DNA from: Anaerolineae bacterium
GTDB taxonomy: Bacteria; Chloroflexota; Anaerolineae; Aggregatilineales; Aggregatilineaceae
Direction: 5' to 3'
NCBI GenBank assembly: GCA_018432315.1
Contig: JAHDLB010000001.1
Span: 248,001 to 312,000 of the forward strand
Length of the DNA: 64,000 nucleotides
Shown: in pieces, positions 52,775 to 61,669 of the stretch
Position numbering within the stretch: position 1 is the first letter of the stretch
Layout of the letters: every line of letters starts with the position of its first letter
Program-made: the position numbers and the translations under genes
The notes under the pieces: model-generated
The model's database searches: none
What the model saw: the letters and a program-made list of their open reading frames with translations, nothing else
What the model was told of the DNA's origin: nothing

Positions 52775-54037
52775 ATGAAGCGCGCCCTTATTCTGGCTCT
52801 GGTCCTGGTGATGAGCGTCCTGGCGGTCCTGCCCGGCGGCCCGGCGGCCCCCGCCGAAGCCCGGCAGACCCAAGTGCTGGAGATCTACATCACTGGCCTG
52901 ACCGAAGACACCATGAACTGGTTCAATGACGTGGCCTTCCCCGCCTTCGAGGCGGCCAACCCCGGCGTCGACTGCGAGATCATCACCGGCGGGTGGGGCG
53001 ATTTCGACGTGACGGTCGCGGGCTGGATCACCACCGGTGATGGCCCGGACATCATCTACCTCGGTTCGGAATACGCCGCGACCTACGGCGACCTGCTGAT
53101 GGACCTCGACCCCTACTTCCAGGACTGGGAAGACTGGGGCCAGTATCTGCCCGCCGCGATCGACACCGTGACCTATGACGGGCACGTGCGCGGCCTGCCC
53201 CTGCTGATGAGCCCGCGCCCGATCTTCTACCGCGCGGACCTGATGCAGGGCGACGTCCCGCTGACGTTCGCCGACGCGCTCGAATTCTACGCGGCCAACA
53301 CCGTCCTCGAAGCGGGCGCGGCCAAGCAGTGGGCGTTCATGGACATCGGCAACGACCTGTTCGACGCCCAGGAATTCATCGCCTACATCTGGTCGGCGGG
53401 CGGCGAACTGTACTATGAAGACGGCACCAGCGCGTTCGACAGCGAGCCGGTCGCCGAGGCGATGCAGTACATGTACGACCGCCGCCGCATCATGCGCCCG
53501 ACGGAAGACACCGCCGGCCTGCCGCCCATCGAGGGCACCGCGTTGGAGTCGGGCATCGTGATCAGCGGCATCTTCCCCATGTGGGCCGTGCCGCCGACCA
53601 GCGACCCGATCTGGGACAACGTCGCGATCGCGCCCTATCCGGCAGGCGCCAACGGCAGCCCGCTGATCCAGGTGTTCATCGACTGGCTCTCGGTTCCCGC
53701 CTACGTCGACGACCCGGCGCTGGCGGTCGAATTCCTGAAGTTCATCGGCAGCAACGAGAACGCCGTCGCGCTCAAGGACGTGGCCGGTTTCACGCCGACC
53801 CGCCAGGATGCCTGGGACGCGATCAAGGCGAGCGACCCGGTGTGGTCGAAGCTGCTCGACCTGGCCGTCGACTATGGCCGCGCGTTCTCGGACATCCGCG
53901 CCAGCGCCGAGCTGCGCCCGCTGATCTTCGAGCAGATGACGCTCTTCCTGACCGACCAGCAGAGCCTGGAAACCACGCAGATGCTGCTCAAGGAAGAGTA
54001 CGACTACATCCTCGAAGAAAACGGGTACCTCGACTGA
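52775..54037 (+). CDS. Sugar ABC transporter substrate-binding protein
   Basis: Secreted family-1 binding protein of 420 residues. AGGAG (52760-52764) supports the start at 52775, which opens a signal peptide to about PAEARQT. The mature sequence has VLEIYITGLTEDTMNWFNDV, GDGPDIIYLGSEYAA and DGHVRGLPLLMSPRPIFYRADL, typical of carbohydrate binders. First gene of a plus-strand operon with two permeases and glycosidases; an amino-sugar oligomer is the inferred ligand. Confidence 0.87.
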   Translation: MKRALILALVLVMSVLAVLPGGPAAPAEARQTQVLEIYITGLTEDTMNWFNDVAFPAFEAANPGVDCEIITGGWGDFDVTVAGWITTGDGPDIIYLGSEYAATYGDLLMDLDPYFQDWEDWGQYLPAAIDTVTYDGHVRGLPLLMSPRPIFYRADLMQGDVPLTFADALEFYAANTVLEAGAAKQWAFMDIGNDLFDAQEFIAYIWSAGGELYYEDGTSAFDSEPVAEAMQYMYDRRRIMRPTEDTAGLPPIEGTALESGIVISGIFPMWAVPPTSDPIWDNVAIAPYPAGANGSPLIQVFIDWLSVPAYVDDPALAVEFLKFIGSNENAVALKDVAGFTPTRQDAWDAIKASDPVWSKLLDLAVDYGRAFSDIRASAELRPLIFEQMTLFLTDQQSLETTQMLLKEEYDYILEENGYLD

Positions 54038-54153: not shown

Positions 54154-56118
54154 ATGGCCTCTGAGGCACGATTTCACAACCTGGAATGGGCGCTGTATAC
54201 GGTCATCTTCATCGTCATCAGCAGCGTGCTGTTGGGCGCGCTGGCCCGGCTGGTCGCCCGGCTGTTCCGGCTCTCCGGCGCGGAGCAGCGCAAGATATTT
54301 TGGGGATTCACCTTCGCCGGCCCCTGGATCATCGGGTTCTTCATCTTCGTGCTCGGCCCGGCGCTGGCTTCGCTCTACTACAGCTTCACGGACTACCAGC
54401 TCGGCCAGAGCATCGAGTGGATCGGGCTGGACAACTACCGCGCGCTGCTGCTGGGCGAGGGGCGCCAGGGGCGCATGTTCAACACGTCCATGCTCAACTC
54501 GTTCTACTACGCGCTGTTGGGCGTCCCGCTGCAAATCACCGCCGCGCTGGCGATGGCGATGCTGCTCAACAACGAGCTGCCCGGCATTCGCGCCTTCCGC
54601 ATGATCTTCTACATGCCGGTGATCCTGGCGGGCGGCCCGGCAATCTTGCTGGCGTGGCGCTACATGCTCGCCTCGAACGGCGGTTTCGTCAATGAGGCCA
54701 TGCGCAAGCTGGGCGACCTGTTCTTCGTGTTCGACTATCTCTACCGCCTGTTCATCTACGGGACCGAGGCGTTCAACGGGTTCTACATCGGCATCATGCG
54801 CGGCGACCCGCTCGGCCCGTGGAAGTACACGCTGCCCGCGCTGCTGGCCGGGCTGCTGCTGTTCGCCCTGATCCGGGGCGAGTGGTCGGAAGGCAAGCGC
54901 GTGCTGGCGTGGCGTGGCGCGACGATCATCGGGATCGCCGTGGCGTTCCGCCTGATGTCCAAAGGGCTGATGGCCCAGCCAATCGACCCGGCGTGGATTT
55001 ACGCGGGCGGGGCGGCGGCGTTGGCCGGGATCATCCTGCTGGCGCACGAGCGGCGCGGCCTGGCCCGCCTGATCCAGGTCGTGACGGCGCTGGCCGCGCT
55101 CGCGGTCGGCGCGCTCGTCCTGGACCGCGCCGGGTTCGACGTCGCCAGCCGCGAGTCGGTGCGCTATCTCGTCCCGCTGGGGCTGGTGGCGACGGCGCTT
55201 GGGTTCTCGGCGGTGGGCCCGTGGACGCGGCGCAAGTCGGCGGTCTTGTGGGCGGTGGTGGGCGCGTTCGGGCTGATCGCGCTGGCCCGCCACGCGCCGG
55301 GCGAGATGGGCGGGGATCGCCTGGAGGTCGTCGCGCGCTACCTGACGTTCGGCAGCACCATCGAGACGAAAACCGACCTGGACTATCTCCAGACGGCGTT
55401 CCCGGAATGGCTGATGTCCGCCACGTGGTTCTACGGGCTGGCGGTGGCCGTGCTGGCCGGGATCGCGCTGTTGGGGGACCGCTGGCCGCGCGCGCGCCGG
55501 GCGCTGTCGATCGGCGCGGCGGCGTTCTTCGGCCTGATGGCGATCGGCTCGTTCCTCGACGGGCGGGCGTATTTTGGGGCGTTCGTGGACCTGGCCGAAG
55601 CGACCGGCAAGACCAACTACCACTTCGCGATGTTCCACCAGGCGCTCAACCAGTTCCCGGACCGGACGCGCGTCCCGCTGTGGATGAACAGCGAGCTGTG
55701 GTCCAAGCCCGCGCTGATCCTGATCACGATGTGGAGTTCCGGCACGGGGATGCTGATCTTCCTGGCGGCGCTCAAGAGCGTGCCGCGCGCGCTGTACGAG
55801 GCCGCTGAAGTGGACGGCGCGAACACCCTCCAGCGCTTTCTCAAGATCACGCTGCCGATGATCTCGCCCGCCATGTTCTACAACATCGTGATCGGCGTGA
55901 TCGCGGCGCTGCAAACCTTCGAGATCATCTACATGCTGCAGACGCCGCTCACGCGGGACAGCCTCTCGTCGGCGGCGTTCCTGCTCTACGCGCGGACGTT
56001 CAGCGAGCTGCGCATCGGCGAGGGGGCGGCCATGTCGTGGATTCTGGTCGTGATCATCCTCACGCTGACGGCGCTCCAGTTCCGCTACAGCCGCAGTTGG
56101 GTACACTACGAGGCATAG
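54154..56118 (+). CDS. Sugar ABC permease, MalF type, with large membrane insertion
   Basis: Permease of 654 residues, twice the family norm. Residues 1-180 match the first half of a MalF-type permease (WIGLDNYRALL, RAFRMIFYMPVILAGGPAILLAW, GGFVNEAMRKLG). Residues 510-654 match the second half with EAA loop ALYEAAEVDGANTLQRF near 545. Between them, about 185-505 holds an extra block with about eight hydrophobic segments (near 224, 253, 280, 305, 335, 361, 418 and 449). The reading frame is open throughout. It partners the next permease 6 nt downstream. Confidence 0.83.
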   Translation: MASEARFHNLEWALYTVIFIVISSVLLGALARLVARLFRLSGAEQRKIFWGFTFAGPWIIGFFIFVLGPALASLYYSFTDYQLGQSIEWIGLDNYRALLLGEGRQGRMFNTSMLNSFYYALLGVPLQITAALAMAMLLNNELPGIRAFRMIFYMPVILAGGPAILLAWRYMLASNGGFVNEAMRKLGDLFFVFDYLYRLFIYGTEAFNGFYIGIMRGDPLGPWKYTLPALLAGLLLFALIRGEWSEGKRVLAWRGATIIGIAVAFRLMSKGLMAQPIDPAWIYAGGAAALAGIILLAHERRGLARLIQVVTALAALAVGALVLDRAGFDVASRESVRYLVPLGLVATALGFSAVGPWTRRKSAVLWAVVGAFGLIALARHAPGEMGGDRLEVVARYLTFGSTIETKTDLDYLQTAFPEWLMSATWFYGLAVAVLAGIALLGDRWPRARRALSIGAAAFFGLMAIGSFLDGRAYFGAFVDLAEATGKTNYHFAMFHQALNQFPDRTRVPLWMNSELWSKPALILITMWSSGTGMLIFLAALKSVPRALYEAAEVDGANTLQRFLKITLPMISPAMFYNIVIGVIAALQTFEIIYMLQTPLTRDSLSSAAFLLYARTFSELRIGEGAAMSWILVVIILTLTALQFRYSRSWVHYEA

Positions 56119-56124
56119 ACCGGC

Positions 56125-57030
56125 ATGGCGACACAGACTCAAACCCAGGATATAAACCGCGCGGCCCGGCTCGACCTGGCCCGGCTGACGCGCCACGGCG
56201 GGCAGCGGCTGCGCGTGCTCCTGTTATATGCCCTGTTGCTGGCCGGTGCGGCGTTCTTCCTCTTCCCGCTGGTGTGGATGGTGGGCACCTCGCTCAAGAC
56301 AATCGAGGAGGTGGGGCGCTCGCAGCTTCACCTGCTGCCGGCGGAGCCCCAGTGGCGCAACTACGACAAGCTGCTCAACGAAGAGGCGTTTTACCGCGCC
56401 TACGCCAACAGCATCTTCATCGTCACCATCGTGCTGCTCGGCACGGTCACGTCGGTGTCGTTGGTGGCGTTCTCGTTCAGCCGCCTGGAGTGGCGGGGCC
56501 GCAACGTCGTCTTCGCGCTGATGATGAGCACGCTCATGCTGCCGTACCAGGCGACGCTGGTCCCGCAGTACGTGATGTTTCACGAGTTGAACTGGCTGCG
56601 CACCTTCAACCCGATCACGCTGCCGGGGTTTTTCGCGGGCGGCGCGGCGCTGATCTTTCTGCTGCGGCAGTTCATGCTGGGCATCCCGCGCGAGCTGGAC
56701 GAGGCCGCCATGATCGACGGCGCGAACCCGCTGCAAATCTGGTGGCACATCATCATGCCGCTGTCGCGCCCGGCGGTGGCGACGATCTCGGTGTTCCTGT
56801 TCGTGGGGCAGTGGAACAACCTGATGATGCCGCTGATCTACCTGCAAAAACCGGCGCTGTACACCATGCCGATCTACGTGGCCCAGAAGCTCAACCTCCA
56901 GGAGTCGCCGCTGCCCTGGCAGGACATGATGGCGGCCAGCGTGTTGTTCGTGATCCCGGTGCTGGTTGTGTTCCTGTTCACCCAGCGGTATTTTATCGAG
57001 GGAATCACGACGACCGGCACCAAAGGATAG
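56125..57030 (+). CDS. Sugar ABC transporter permease, MalG type
   Basis: Inner-membrane permease of 301 residues with six helices and EAA loop ELDEAAMIDGANPLQIWWHII near residue 192; ends RYFIEGITTTGTKG as usual. It begins 6 nt after the long permease and ends 6 nt before the GH3 gene, so all are one transcript. No ATPase is encoded in this operon. Confidence 0.87.
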   Translation: MATQTQTQDINRAARLDLARLTRHGGQRLRVLLLYALLLAGAAFFLFPLVWMVGTSLKTIEEVGRSQLHLLPAEPQWRNYDKLLNEEAFYRAYANSIFIVTIVLLGTVTSVSLVAFSFSRLEWRGRNVVFALMMSTLMLPYQATLVPQYVMFHELNWLRTFNPITLPGFFAGGAALIFLLRQFMLGIPRELDEAAMIDGANPLQIWWHIIMPLSRPAVATISVFLFVGQWNNLMMPLIYLQKPALYTMPIYVAQKLNLQESPLPWQDMMAASVLFVIPVLVVFLFTQRYFIEGITTTGTKG

Positions 57031-57036
57031 GCCACC

Positions 57037-58545
57037 ATGCAGCAGTTGATGCACAGCTTTCCCGGCACCGAGCCGCCGGCGGACATTCTCGCCGCCGTCG
57101 AGCGGGGCGAGATCGGCGCGTTCTGCCTGTTCGGGCACTGGAATTTCGCCAGCGTGGCGCAGTTCCGCGCCCTGACCGAGGCGCTCATCGACGCGGCGGC
57201 GCGCGGCGGGTTTCCCCCGCCCCTGATCGGCATCGACCAGGAGGGCGGCCAGTTGATGGCGGTCGGCCAGCCGGCGACCGAGCTGCCCGGCAACATGGCC
57301 CTGGGCGCGACGCGCTCGCCGGAGCTGGCCGAGCAGGCCGGGCGCGTGCTGGGGCGCGAGCTTCGGGCGCTGGGCGTCAACATGAACTTCGCGCCGTCGC
57401 TGGACATCAACGTGAACCCGGCCAGCCAGGCGGTCGGCGTGCGCTCGTTCGGCGCGGACCCCGCGCTGGTGACCGAGCTGGGACTGGCGATGATCCGCGG
57501 GCTGGAGGCCGAGGGCGTGATCGCCACGGCCAAGCACTTCCCCGGCCACGGCGCGACCGAGAGCGACTCGCACCACGTCGCCGCCGTGGTTCCGCACACG
57601 ATGGCGCGCATGAACCGGGTCGAGCTGGCGCCGTTTCGGGCCGCGATCGAGGCCGGGGTGCGGGCCATCATGACGACGCACGTGATCTTCGCCGCGCTCG
57701 ATCCTGCCAACCCGGCGACCGTGTCCCCGGCCATCCTCGATGGGCATCTGCGCCGGGCGATGGGCTTCGGCGGGCTGATCGTGACCGACGCGATGGACAT
57801 GCACCCGGTCGCCCGCCTGGGGGCCGAGGCGAGCGTGCGCGGGGCGCTGGACGCGGGCGCCGATCTGGTGCTGCTGGCTCATCTGCCGGACCAGCTCGCC
57901 CTGAGCCGGAACCTGCGCGATCGCGCCCGGCCCGGCGCCGTTGCGCGGATCGACGCGCTGCGGGCGAGCATTCCGCGGGCGCTGCCCCCGCTGGACGTGC
58001 TCGGTTGCGCGGAGCACCACCACGTCGCGCAGACCATCGCCGACCGGGCGATCACGCTCGTGCGCGACGGCGGGCGGCTGCCGCTGCGCCCCAGCCCGGA
58101 CCAGAGGATTGCCGTGATCACGCCGGAGCCGCGCGACCTGACCCCGGCGGATACCTCGTCCCACGTCCGGATCGATCTGGCGGGCGCGATCCGGCGGCGG
58201 CACCCGCGCACCGACGCGTTCACCCTGCCGGGCGGGGCGTCCGGCGCGGACGTGAGCGCGATCCTGGCCGCGTGCCAGGGCGCCGATCGGGTCGTCGTGG
58301 GGACCGTCGCCGCCGATCAGGACCCGTCCCAGGCGGAACTGGTGCGGGCGCTGCACCGGCGCGGTCAGCCGCCGATCGTCGTCGCGCTGCGCACCCCGTT
58401 CGACATCACCGCGTTTCCGGAGGTCGATACCTACCTGTGCGCGTACAGCATCCGTGCCGTTTCGACCGAGGCCGTCGCCCGCGTGCTGTTCGGCGAGATC
58501 GAGGCGGCGGGCGCGCTGCCCTGCCCGATCGCGGCCCAGGCGTAG
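57037..58545 (+). CDS. nagZ: GH3 beta-N-acetylhexosaminidase (NagZ type)
   Basis: Cytoplasmic glycosidase of 502 residues. The NagZ signature KHFPGHGATESDSHH is at 166-180 and supplies the acid/base pair D177/H179 used by NagZ; the nucleophile is D251 in IVTDAMDM. A C-terminal domain of about 170 residues (LVRDGGRLPLRPSPDQ onward) is longer than E. coli NagZ and like Gram-positive NagZ. It would release N-acetylglucosamine from imported chito- or muropeptide fragments. It lies between permease and GH18 genes. Confidence 0.88.
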   Translation: MQQLMHSFPGTEPPADILAAVERGEIGAFCLFGHWNFASVAQFRALTEALIDAAARGGFPPPLIGIDQEGGQLMAVGQPATELPGNMALGATRSPELAEQAGRVLGRELRALGVNMNFAPSLDINVNPASQAVGVRSFGADPALVTELGLAMIRGLEAEGVIATAKHFPGHGATESDSHHVAAVVPHTMARMNRVELAPFRAAIEAGVRAIMTTHVIFAALDPANPATVSPAILDGHLRRAMGFGGLIVTDAMDMHPVARLGAEASVRGALDAGADLVLLAHLPDQLALSRNLRDRARPGAVARIDALRASIPRALPPLDVLGCAEHHHVAQTIADRAITLVRDGGRLPLRPSPDQRIAVITPEPRDLTPADTSSHVRIDLAGAIRRRHPRTDAFTLPGGASGADVSAILAACQGADRVVVGTVAADQDPSQAELVRALHRRGQPPIVVALRTPFDITAFPEVDTYLCAYSIRAVSTEAVARVLFGEIEAAGALPCPIAAQA

Positions 58546-58629: not shown

Positions 58630-59673
58630 ATGACGACCCGGCTGGTAGCTGTGATTCTGCTTGTCGTGATCCTGGCGGCGGGGAGCGCGCCAACCGCGCG
58701 CGGTCGCCAGGACGATGCCCCGCGCCGGTGGTGCGTGTCGGTCTGGTACCCGTCGTCGGAGCACCCCGGCGGCGCCCAGTCGATCCGGGACCATCTGGAC
58801 GTCATCGACGAGGTGAACCCGTTCTGGTATGCGGCGGGCCCGGACGGGTCGCTGCTGTCGCTGCCTGGCGCCGAGGACGCCGCCAGGCTGGACGAGTGGC
58901 GCGACGCGGGCCTGCTGATCCTGCCGACGATTGCCCACGCCTCGCCGGACGCGATCACCGATCCGGACGTGCGCGCCCGCCACGTCGCGGCGATCGTGGC
59001 GCTGGTCGAACGGCTCGACGTGGACGGGATCGACATCGATTACGAGGAATTCCCGCTCGACACGCGCGACGCGTTCTCGGCGTTCGTCGAGGCGCTGGCG
59101 GACCGGCTGCACACCGACGGGCGGCTGCTGTCCATCGCCGTGCACGCCAAGACGACCGACCGCCCCGGCTGGGACAGCGCGGCGGCCCAGGACTGGGCGC
59201 GGCTGGCGGCGGCGGTTGACGTGTTCCGCATCATGACCTACGACTATCACAGCCGGGCGAGCCGCGAGCCGGGGCCGATTGGCCCGCCGGGGTGGTCCCG
59301 CGAGGTGCTGGCCTATGCCGCCACGGTGACCGACCTGAGCAAAGTGCGCCTGGGCCTGCACTTCTACGGCTACCGCTGGCAGCGCGGATCGGCGGCGGTC
59401 GTCACGTGGGAGAGCGCCCAACGCGCCATCGACAGCTACGGGCTGGCGTTCGAGCGCGACCCGGATTCGATGGAGGCGATCCTGCACGTGGACGTGCGCG
59501 GGCTGCCCCGGCAGACGATCGTGGTGGCGGATGCCGCCGGATTGGCGTATAAACTCGATCAGATCGCTGCCGCGTTCCCGGACCTGGGCGGGGTGGCGAT
59601 CTGGGGGCTGGGCGGCGAAGACCCGGCCAACTGGGACGTCTTGCGCGAGCAGCGCCAGGGTGAATGTGAATGA
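58630..59673 (+). CDS. Secreted GH18-family glycosidase
   Basis: Exported protein of 347 residues (signal peptide about 1-25). The GH18 catalytic motif DGIDIDYE at 132-139 contains D135, D137 and the acid E139. RIMTYDYHS, YGYRWQR and GGVAIWGLGGEDP follow in normal order. The overall pattern resembles the spore-germination/YaaH branch that cuts N-acetylglucosaminyl bonds in peptidoglycan, but chitin is possible. GGAGG precedes the start. The stop overlaps the ROK regulator start by 4 bp. Confidence 0.85.
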   Translation: MTTRLVAVILLVVILAAGSAPTARGRQDDAPRRWCVSVWYPSSEHPGGAQSIRDHLDVIDEVNPFWYAAGPDGSLLSLPGAEDAARLDEWRDAGLLILPTIAHASPDAITDPDVRARHVAAIVALVERLDVDGIDIDYEEFPLDTRDAFSAFVEALADRLHTDGRLLSIAVHAKTTDRPGWDSAAAQDWARLAAAVDVFRIMTYDYHSRASREPGPIGPPGWSREVLAYAATVTDLSKVRLGLHFYGYRWQRGSAAVVTWESAQRAIDSYGLAFERDPDSMEAILHVDVRGLPRQTIVVADAAGLAYKLDQIAAAFPDLGGVAIWGLGGEDPANWDVLREQRQGECE

Positions 59674-60830
59674 GAGCCAGCACGGCGAATAAGGCGACGC
59701 ACAGCCAGCTTCGCCAGCACAACCGGCAGCTTCTGCTGCGCGCCATCTACGAGGGTGTGGCCGACAACCGCGCGGCGCTCGCCCAGGAGACACAGCTCGC
59801 CAAGCCGACCGTGTCCGAGCTGATCGGCGAGCTGATCGACGAGGGGCTGCTCGTCGAGGAGGGCCGGGGCCAGTCCACGCGCGGCGGTGGCAAGCGCCCG
59901 CGCCTGCTGCGGTTCGTGCCGGCGGCGCGGCAGGTGATCGGCGTGTCGATCAGCGAGGATCACATCATGGCCGCGCTGGCCTATCTCGACGGGCGGATCG
60001 TCGCGCGCCACTACACCGACCTGGGCGGCGCCCGGGGCGAGGACGTGATCGCCGCGGTCGGCGAGACGATCAACGGCCTGATCGCCCAGCTCGACGCCCC
60101 GCTGTTGTGCATCGGGCTCGGCGTGGCGGGCGTGGTCGATGCCGGCGCGGGGACGGTGATTCACGCGCCGCACCTGGATTGGGCGCAGGTTCCGCTGGCG
60201 CGGCTCGTTGCCGGCATGTACGACACGCCAGCCTACCTGGCGCACAGCACGGCGCTGGTCGCCATGGCCGAGTACGTCTATGGCCCGACCGAGCCGGTGC
60301 ACTGCTTCGCAGTGGTGCGCGTGGGGAGCGGCGTCGGCGTCGGGCTGGTGATCAACGGCGCGATCTATCACGGCGGCGGCGAGATCGGACCTCTGCGCGT
60401 GGGGGACGGGCTGGGGAGCCTCGATACGCTTCTGGGCTGGCCCTGCGTGCGCCAGCGGGCGGAAGCCCTGCGCCGCGAGCACACGCCGAGCCTGCTGCCC
60501 GGCGAGGACGAGCCGCTGTCGTACCTGCACATTCGCCACGCGGCGGACAACGGCGACCGCGCCGCGCTGGCCCTGCGCGACGAGCTGAGCCGCCATCTGG
60601 CGCAGGTGTTCGCCTGGATCACCGGCCTGCTGACGCCCGATCACGTCGCGCTGGCCGGGCCGATCACCGACCTGGGCGAGCCGCTGCTGGAACAGGCGGC
60701 GGCCTATACCCGCGAATGGGTGGGCGCCGGCCCGCTCCGCCCGGTGAGTTTTTCGCTGGCCGAAGCGCCGAGCCTGGTCGCGGTGGGCGCGATCGCCCAG
60801 GCGCTGCATCGAGAGCTGGGGTTGGTATGA
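59670..60830 (+). CDS. ROK-family transcriptional regulator
   Basis: Regulator of 386 residues. A winged helix (about 12-70; RAALAQETQLAKPTVSELIGELIDEGLL) precedes a ROK sugar-binding domain (about 90-380) with GLGVAGVV and VRVGSGVGVGLVINGAIYHGGGEIG. The zinc-binding His and Cys cluster are missing (PLRVGDGLGSLDTLLGWPC), and kinase activity is unlikely. It probably represses this amino-sugar operon through the near-palindrome at 52622-52644. It overlaps both neighbours by 4 bp. Confidence 0.86.
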   Translation: MRASTANKATHSQLRQHNRQLLLRAIYEGVADNRAALAQETQLAKPTVSELIGELIDEGLLVEEGRGQSTRGGGKRPRLLRFVPAARQVIGVSISEDHIMAALAYLDGRIVARHYTDLGGARGEDVIAAVGETINGLIAQLDAPLLCIGLGVAGVVDAGAGTVIHAPHLDWAQVPLARLVAGMYDTPAYLAHSTALVAMAEYVYGPTEPVHCFAVVRVGSGVGVGLVINGAIYHGGGEIGPLRVGDGLGSLDTLLGWPCVRQRAEALRREHTPSLLPGEDEPLSYLHIRHAADNGDRAALALRDELSRHLAQVFAWITGLLTPDHVALAGPITDLGEPLLEQAAAYTREWVGAGPLRPVSFSLAEAPSLVAVGAIAQALHRELGLV

Positions 60831-61669
60831 GCGCGACACACCTGGGCGTGATCACGAACAACCAGCACCAGGTCTTCCAGCGCGCGGTGATCGCGGGCAT
60901 TCGCCAGGTCGCCGGGGCGCATGGCTACGATCTGGTGATCGATTCGTACGCCGACGACGAAACCCAACCGCGCCCGATCACGCTGGACTACCGCGCGGTG
61001 GCGGGCGTGTGCGTGATCGCCGACGCGGCCCCGGCGGGCCTGCTGCGCGAGATGGTCGACGCCCGGACGCCCGTGTCGCTGGTCAGCCATCAGGTGTCCG
61101 GCCTGCCGATCCCCTCGGTGAGCGCCGACAACTACCAGGGCATCGCCGAGCTGATGCGGCATCTGGTGATCGAGTGCGGGCGGCGCCGCGTGGTGTTCAT
61201 CCGCGGGGTGGGCGGGCAGTGGGACAGCGAAGGCCGCAAGACGGCGTTTGGACGCGAGGTAATGCGTTATAATCTGGATGTCCCGCCGGAGCACCTGCTG
61301 CGCGGCGATTTCTCGGCGGAGGTAGCCGCCCGCTCGCTCCAGGCCCTGATCGCGTCCGGCGCGCAGTTCGACGCCGTGCTGGCGGCGGATTATCGGATGG
61401 GCATCGCGGCGGTCGACACCCTGCGCCGCGCCGGGTATGTCGTGCCGGGGAGCGTGTCGGTCGTCGGGTTTGGCGATGCCGAGGAAGCCGAGGCGGCGGG
61501 CCTGACGACGGTCGCCGCCGACATCGCCGAACAGGGGCGGCGCGCGGCCCGCCAGTTGATCAGCCAGATCGAGGGCCTGCCCATCCGGGGTATGACGGTG
61601 CTCAGCGTGCGCCCGGTGATCCGCGACACGTCGCTGCCGGATGGCCCCGCGCGCGCCGGGCGGCGTTAG
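60827..61669 (+). CDS. LacI/GalR-type sensor domain without DNA-binding domain
   Basis: Cytoplasmic protein of 280 residues that aligns with the effector domain of LacI/GalR repressors but starts directly at its first strand (THLGVITNNQHQVFQRAVIAGI). SVSADNYQGIAELMRHL, VLAADYRMGIAAVDTLRRAG and VSVVGFGDAEEA are typical of that domain. There is no helix-turn-helix and no signal peptide. It is coupled to the ROK regulator by a 4-bp overlap and ends the operon. It may modulate the ROK protein or be a decayed repressor. Confidence 0.82.
   Translation: MSATHLGVITNNQHQVFQRAVIAGIRQVAGAHGYDLVIDSYADDETQPRPITLDYRAVAGVCVIADAAPAGLLREMVDARTPVSLVSHQVSGLPIPSVSADNYQGIAELMRHLVIECGRRRVVFIRGVGGQWDSEGRKTAFGREVMRYNLDVPPEHLLRGDFSAEVAARSLQALIASGAQFDAVLAADYRMGIAAVDTLRRAGYVVPGSVSVVGFGDAEEAEAAGLTTVAADIAEQGRRAARQLISQIEGLPIRGMTVLSVRPVIRDTSLPDGPARAGRR

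Follow-up and report, generated by a model that had tools for sequence, protein, structure and literature searches.

The gene at positions 54154–56118 (+ strand) of the window, by which we mean the whole 64,000-nucleotide stretch of Anaerolineae contig JAHDLB010000001.1 that was analysed, encodes what is, as judged from its sequence, the MalF-type membrane subunit of a type I ABC sugar importer. The extracytoplasmic loop of this permease between core TM3 and TM4 appears to have grown in two steps, the first a helical extension of approximately 50 residues that is found in the class, and the second an eight-TM block that is found in a single order and that itself evidently arose by tandem duplication of a four-TM unit. 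We are highly confident of this anatomy and history. Importer permeases of type I typically contain six to eight membrane helices; here an entire polytopic unit has been inserted and doubled inside a conserved permease, and the permease has been left unbroken. Moreover, the stages survive in living relatives as an ordinary loop, an extended loop, four helices and eight helices, a natural series that is suited to testing what accessory membrane domains give ABC importers and, equally, to the study of multi-helix insertion tolerance in membrane proteins.

Results

The frame from 54154 to 56118 is open, without a stop, and specifies 654 residues with approximately 15 predicted TM helices. Its N-terminal core (residues 1–186; 54154–54711, + strand) consists of an extra N-terminal TM and core TM1–TM3 and is 77–84% identical in close orthologues, while the C-terminal core (residues 508–654; 55675–56115, + strand) carries core TM4–TM6 and the EAA loop YEAAEVDGAN (residues 548–557), which serves the ATPase coupling helix and is nearly invariant across the family. 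PF00528 (BPD_transp_1) matches residues 519–641 with 46 bits, where the cut-off is 26.4. Similarity to UgpA/MalF-type permeases is seen in both halves, the UgpA/MalF models match the C-terminal part, and the MalF-type chains of solved structures (PDB sequences) align to residues 507–636 with weak additional matches at 44–183. Many other MalF/MalG-type permeases of the same genome match as well; these paralogues align to residues 26–187 and 508–654 without a large gap between, such that in the closest of them residue ~187 is joined straight to ~508. The nearest paralogue (L002; 44% identity in the C-terminal half) has neither the loop extension nor the block. The extra sequence amounts to approximately 320 residues (187–507) with eight hydrophobic segments, and the original prediction of two recognisable permease halves split by a polytopic insertion is borne out by these matches. 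Its placement of a single insertion at residues 185–505 was correct in that extra sequence does lie there, but the region actually holds two nested insertions, of which the eight-helix block occupies only ~219–489.

The same prediction held that the open frame and uniform base use speak against an artefact of two genes, and with this we agree. GC3 is even along the ORF (0.92 in the N half, 0.95 in the insert and 0.94 in the C half), GC by codon position is coding-like over its entire length, and homologues of similar length occur in 27 genomes. An assembly artefact or a fusion of two genes was rejected, since 27 homologues share the block at one site.

The two insertions are told apart by sister operons of the class (L066–L074 and L079), which were recovered by a class search with the binding protein (~40% identity). 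Like the present operon, these have a solute-binding protein, a MalF, a MalG and often a GH3 in the same order, and their homologous permease core (41–55% identical) shares the extension of approximately 50 residues and E205; unlike it, they are without the membrane block, and those of their binding proteins with a readable N-terminus have lipoboxes. The sister MalF proteins (380–405 residues) align to residues 1–218 and 490–653, and relative to ordinary paralogues they contain the extension with its conserved glutamate. The first part of this older extension (residues 187–218; 54712–54807, + strand) is a long helix whose E205 is conserved in the block clade as well as in the sister clade, and the second part (residues 490–507; 55621–55674, + strand) is delimited by alignment with the sister permeases. 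Placed within it is the order-specific eight-TM block (residues ~219–489; 54808–55620, + strand). That all permeases of the family might normally be this long, a possibility entertained beforehand, holds inside the block clade only, as the sister clade and the paralogues do without the block.

A profile restricted to the insertion gave hits in 29 of the 154 genomes searched in this Chloroflexota order and in 10 of the 396 genomes of a class-wide sample, all ten belonging to that order; when a profile built from 23 diverse members was run on 400 genomes of the phylum, it gave no convincing match elsewhere. Among close relatives, a scan recovered 654-residue orthologues from two MAGs, at identities of 74% and 71%. 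Besides the window's own, 27 readable homologues were extracted (in G803, a 28th is broken across two frames), and the insertion site is identical in all 27. The binding protein is present in 30 genomes of the order, and every readable permease among them has the block except that of G852, where the binding protein is only 35% identical and the permease belongs to the sister type without a block; the G572 contig stops before the permease could be read. Outright loss of the block was not seen in any readable close orthologue of the operon within the order. In its own genome the permease at 54154–56118 is the only one with the block, and many other importers there are without it. When a tree was built from the core without the insertion, the block-bearing rows formed one clade (100/97), its sister being the extended-loop rows (95/84), and ordinary permeases fell outside (100/100), a topology that fits a single gain of the block.

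Within the block, unit 1 (residues 219–330; 54808–55143, + strand) comprises helices a (224–241), b (250–268), c (280–298) and d (306–324), and unit 2 (residues 331–475; 55144–55578, + strand) comprises helices e (337–355), f (363–381), g (423–441) and h (450–468), the latter unit having a longer outer loop (382–422) between f and g. The family-averaged K+R content per residue is 0.26–0.41 in turns a-b, c-d, e-f and g-h and 0.05–0.11 in the outer loops. By the positive-inside rule the block would thus begin and finish outside, and its even number of helices would keep the orientation of the core. AlphaFold returned a pLDDT of 43 with one sequence and 38 with three, values too low for a usable model. 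The order-wide conservation, the eight helices, the consistent positive-inside topology and the purifying selection described below are all in keeping with the earlier proposal of a second membrane module.

Evidence for the duplication comes from alignment of the two units by hhalign (a–d with e–h), which gave a probability of 96%, an E-value of 3e-9 and a score of 55.2 over 102 columns. One hundred column shuffles within hydropathy classes scored 16.2 ± 3.3 (maximum 27.7), and controls with reversed units and core helices scored 10.7–16.9. Taken separately, helices a-b pair with e-f, and c-d with g-h, each above its own null, while the remaining pairings are at or below the maximum of theirs; a finer repeat, in which successive hairpins would be copies of one another, was rejected because it did not rise above the null. 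Ungapped identity peaks sharply in the register of the duplication (0.21 at +113 and 0.20 at +144). With a profile of the unit as query, every readable block-bearing permease, including ones that had not contributed to the profile, proved to contain two units, and that of G634 one; no free-standing unit protein was found in 61 genomes. The G634 permease (L048, 4376–6061) is a natural four-helix form of the block in which helices a, b, g and h are retained. G634 is nested within the block clade in most bootstraps, but with AU p = 0.325; its four-helix form may represent either an in-register loss or a single-unit ancestor.

The permease lies in an operon. Upstream is an SBP_bac_1 solute-binding protein (52775–54037, + strand) with a signal peptide and without a lipobox, and downstream, all on the + strand, are a MalG-type partner permease of ordinary length (56125–57030; 301 aa), a GH3 glycosidase of the NagZ type (57037–58545), a GH18-family protein (58630–59673), a ROK-family regulator with a winged-helix N-terminus (59670–60830) and a LacI-type ligand-binding regulator (60827–61669) that is conserved in the operon and whose start was taken from an ATGA overlap in L015. 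The GH3 carries KHFPGHGATESDSH at residue 166, in agreement with the NagZ motif KH(F/I)PG(H/L)GxxxxD(S/T)H, is without a signal peptide, and scores 191 bits with the NagZ-type NCBIfam model, slightly below the cut-off of 207; the GH18 protein has the catalytic DxxDxDxE motif (as DGIDIDYE) and an N-terminal signal sequence. Wherever the contig reaches, homologues have the binding protein upstream and MalG and GH3 downstream, and the GH18, ROK and LacI-type genes are usually linked further downstream as well. No ATPase gene is present among the operon genes examined; shared ATPases are common, and transport would presumably involve one of the MalK type. The genomic context supports a beta-N-acetylhexosamine-containing saccharide as the substrate of the importer, which would be cleaved by the cytoplasmic NagZ-type GH3. 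The operon is likely to be set in the uptake of beta-N-acetylhexosaminides that derive from chitin or cell walls; we regard the substrate class as probable. By inspection of one sister operon (L079, from ~4784 onward; G852), a GH20-like hexosaminidase gene after the transporter replaces the GH3. The LacI-type gene begins at the ligand-binding domain, seemingly without a DNA-binding head, and overlaps the ROK gene, which has such a head.

Discussion

The explanation that we favor has the block packing beside the permease core, off the translocation path, where it would serve as an accessory membrane platform. Such a platform would hold the conserved outer segments (187–223, 382–422 and 469–507) above the transporter mouth in the manner of a cap, and this cap may aid the docking or orientation of the solute-binding protein, in this case one without a lipid anchor. 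Taken as a whole, with the history of the permease, the substrate and the platform together, we hold this explanation to be evenly balanced between right and wrong; the docking-platform role by itself is tentative, somewhat short of even, and the full proposition that a four-TM module without known relatives was duplicated and acts as a new accessory domain, with a cap that docks or gates an unanchored binding protein, is more tentative still.

Precedent for the docking reading is available in E. coli MalF (MalFGK2-MalE; PDB 2r6g), which likewise belongs to a type I sugar importer with an EAA loop, a MalG-type partner and a binding protein, and which likewise has a large insertion in an outer loop. 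This insertion, the periplasmic region P2 (MalF residues 91–271), contacts MalE (PMC3150292). However, the block sits just ahead of the part that aligns to MalF residue 358, and hence in a different loop, and it consists of eight membrane helices whereas P2 is soluble; a sequence relation between the two was not detected.

The readable binding proteins of the block clade are all without a lipobox, whereas the readable ones of the sister operons have it, and compensation for a lost lipid anchor may as such form part of the background to the block. Nevertheless, a lipobox is found in none of the 30 best SBP_bac_1 proteins of the same genome (G000, L080–L109), and other importers there are without the block; the missing anchor is thus a trait of the lineage and is not specific to the block. 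On this ground, replacement of the lipid anchor by the block was rejected as a specific link. Furthermore, these other importers manage without a block in spite of having no lipid-anchored binding proteins, which counts against the docking platform. Two Lgt-family genes are present in the genome; release of its binding proteins seems to depend on signal peptidase I. A few of the 30 look to be of the Tat type, and the absence of lipoboxes from all of them would be unusual if the cell is single-membraned.

Of the alternatives to the docking platform, the one that fares best, although we think it somewhat unlikely, is that the block entered a permissive outer loop and spread by descent as a tolerated insertion, with little function of its own beyond the need to fold harmlessly. 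The patterns of selection and conservation bear upon this directly. The block is under purifying selection that is looser than that on the core: dN/dS between close pairs is 0.12–0.33 for the block and 0–0.16 for the core, and is well under 1 in all pairs, while at the protein level the block changes several times as fast as the core does. The middle helices c–f are the loosest in most close pairs (dN/dS up to 0.52) and the lowest in conservation. This relative laxity is what a tolerated insertion would be expected to display, as are the sister clade, which has the operon without the block, and the four-helix variant in G634, from which it follows that half of the block is dispensable, at least in that species. 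The rapid protein evolution and this variant count against the docking platform as well. Against it are the dN/dS values themselves, the want of any readable close operon orthologue in the order without the block, and the outer segments of the block, which are conserved across families (Y396, L397, Y411, L412, D469, Y473 and F474). Conservation in at least 85% of members is seen at 36 of the 140 outer positions, 4 of the 30 inner-turn positions and 9 of the 151 positions within the TM helices, and none of these nine is charged. As the conserved positions cluster outside, the conserved surface is the outer face, which favors a structural or docking role and speaks against an ion path, against catalysis and against a cytoplasmic output.

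The block has outer loops of approximately 40–50 residues, which might instead provide a docking site for the secreted GH18 protein or another wall-degrading enzyme, such that products would be released at the mouth of the transporter. This we consider improbable. A linked GH18 gene is seen in most members with a long enough contig, but none was detected downstream in G634, which still has four helices. The earlier suggestion that the block is a partner for the downstream glycosidases has genetic linkage as its evidence; it fits poorly with the GH3, which, having no signal peptide, would face the wrong side of the membrane, and less poorly with the GH18, which has a signal sequence.

That the 4+4 helices constitute a second transporter or channel, moving a substrate or ion of their own in a manner coupled to the ABC importer, is very improbable. 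Many transporters contain helix bundles that were duplicated in tandem, and scattered weak HMM matches to SMR models were obtained (1e-4 to 0.007), each from single members only. The four-helix unit does resemble the SMR proteins and other four-TM drug exporters (EmrE, BcrB) in its length of approximately 105 residues. However, SMR proteins need a conserved membrane glutamate, and no acidic residue, nor indeed any charged one, is conserved at 85% in the eight helices, which are moreover embedded in a permease. Neither the block profile nor the unit profile finds an SMR protein or any other transporter in the PDB, and an assignment to SMR or another known family was rejected for want of a match across members or of a profile match in the PDB. 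Nor was a homologue of the block found in Pfam, NCBIfam, PHROGs, PDB sequences, plasmids or the sampled Chloroflexota genomes, or a free-standing ancestor in the same genome, the class and phylum samples, plasmids or relatives; a few matches in G371 and G063 (E about 1e-4) were set aside, as they cover only part of the block and did not match the permease by BLAST. Beyond Chloroflexota, where relatives may exist, the search consisted of one pattern scan of genome contigs, plasmids and viral contigs; the viral contigs held no relatives. No description of such an insert was found in the open-access subset of the literature.

Least probable of all is a sensor, a role that the original prediction gave as an example; in the form considered here, the block would sense substrate flux or the membrane and signal to the ROK and LacI-type regulators encoded downstream. 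Although these are conserved in the same operon, the four cytoplasmic turns of the block are only 7–8 residues long and there is no soluble cytoplasmic domain, and the ROK regulator looks like an ordinary sugar-binding one.

The outer loops of the block also vary in length. The insertions in L044 (G752) and L046 (G764) are 357–364 residues long, with longer outer loops near 405–410 and 485, and their number of helices, as judged by eye, is the same as usual.
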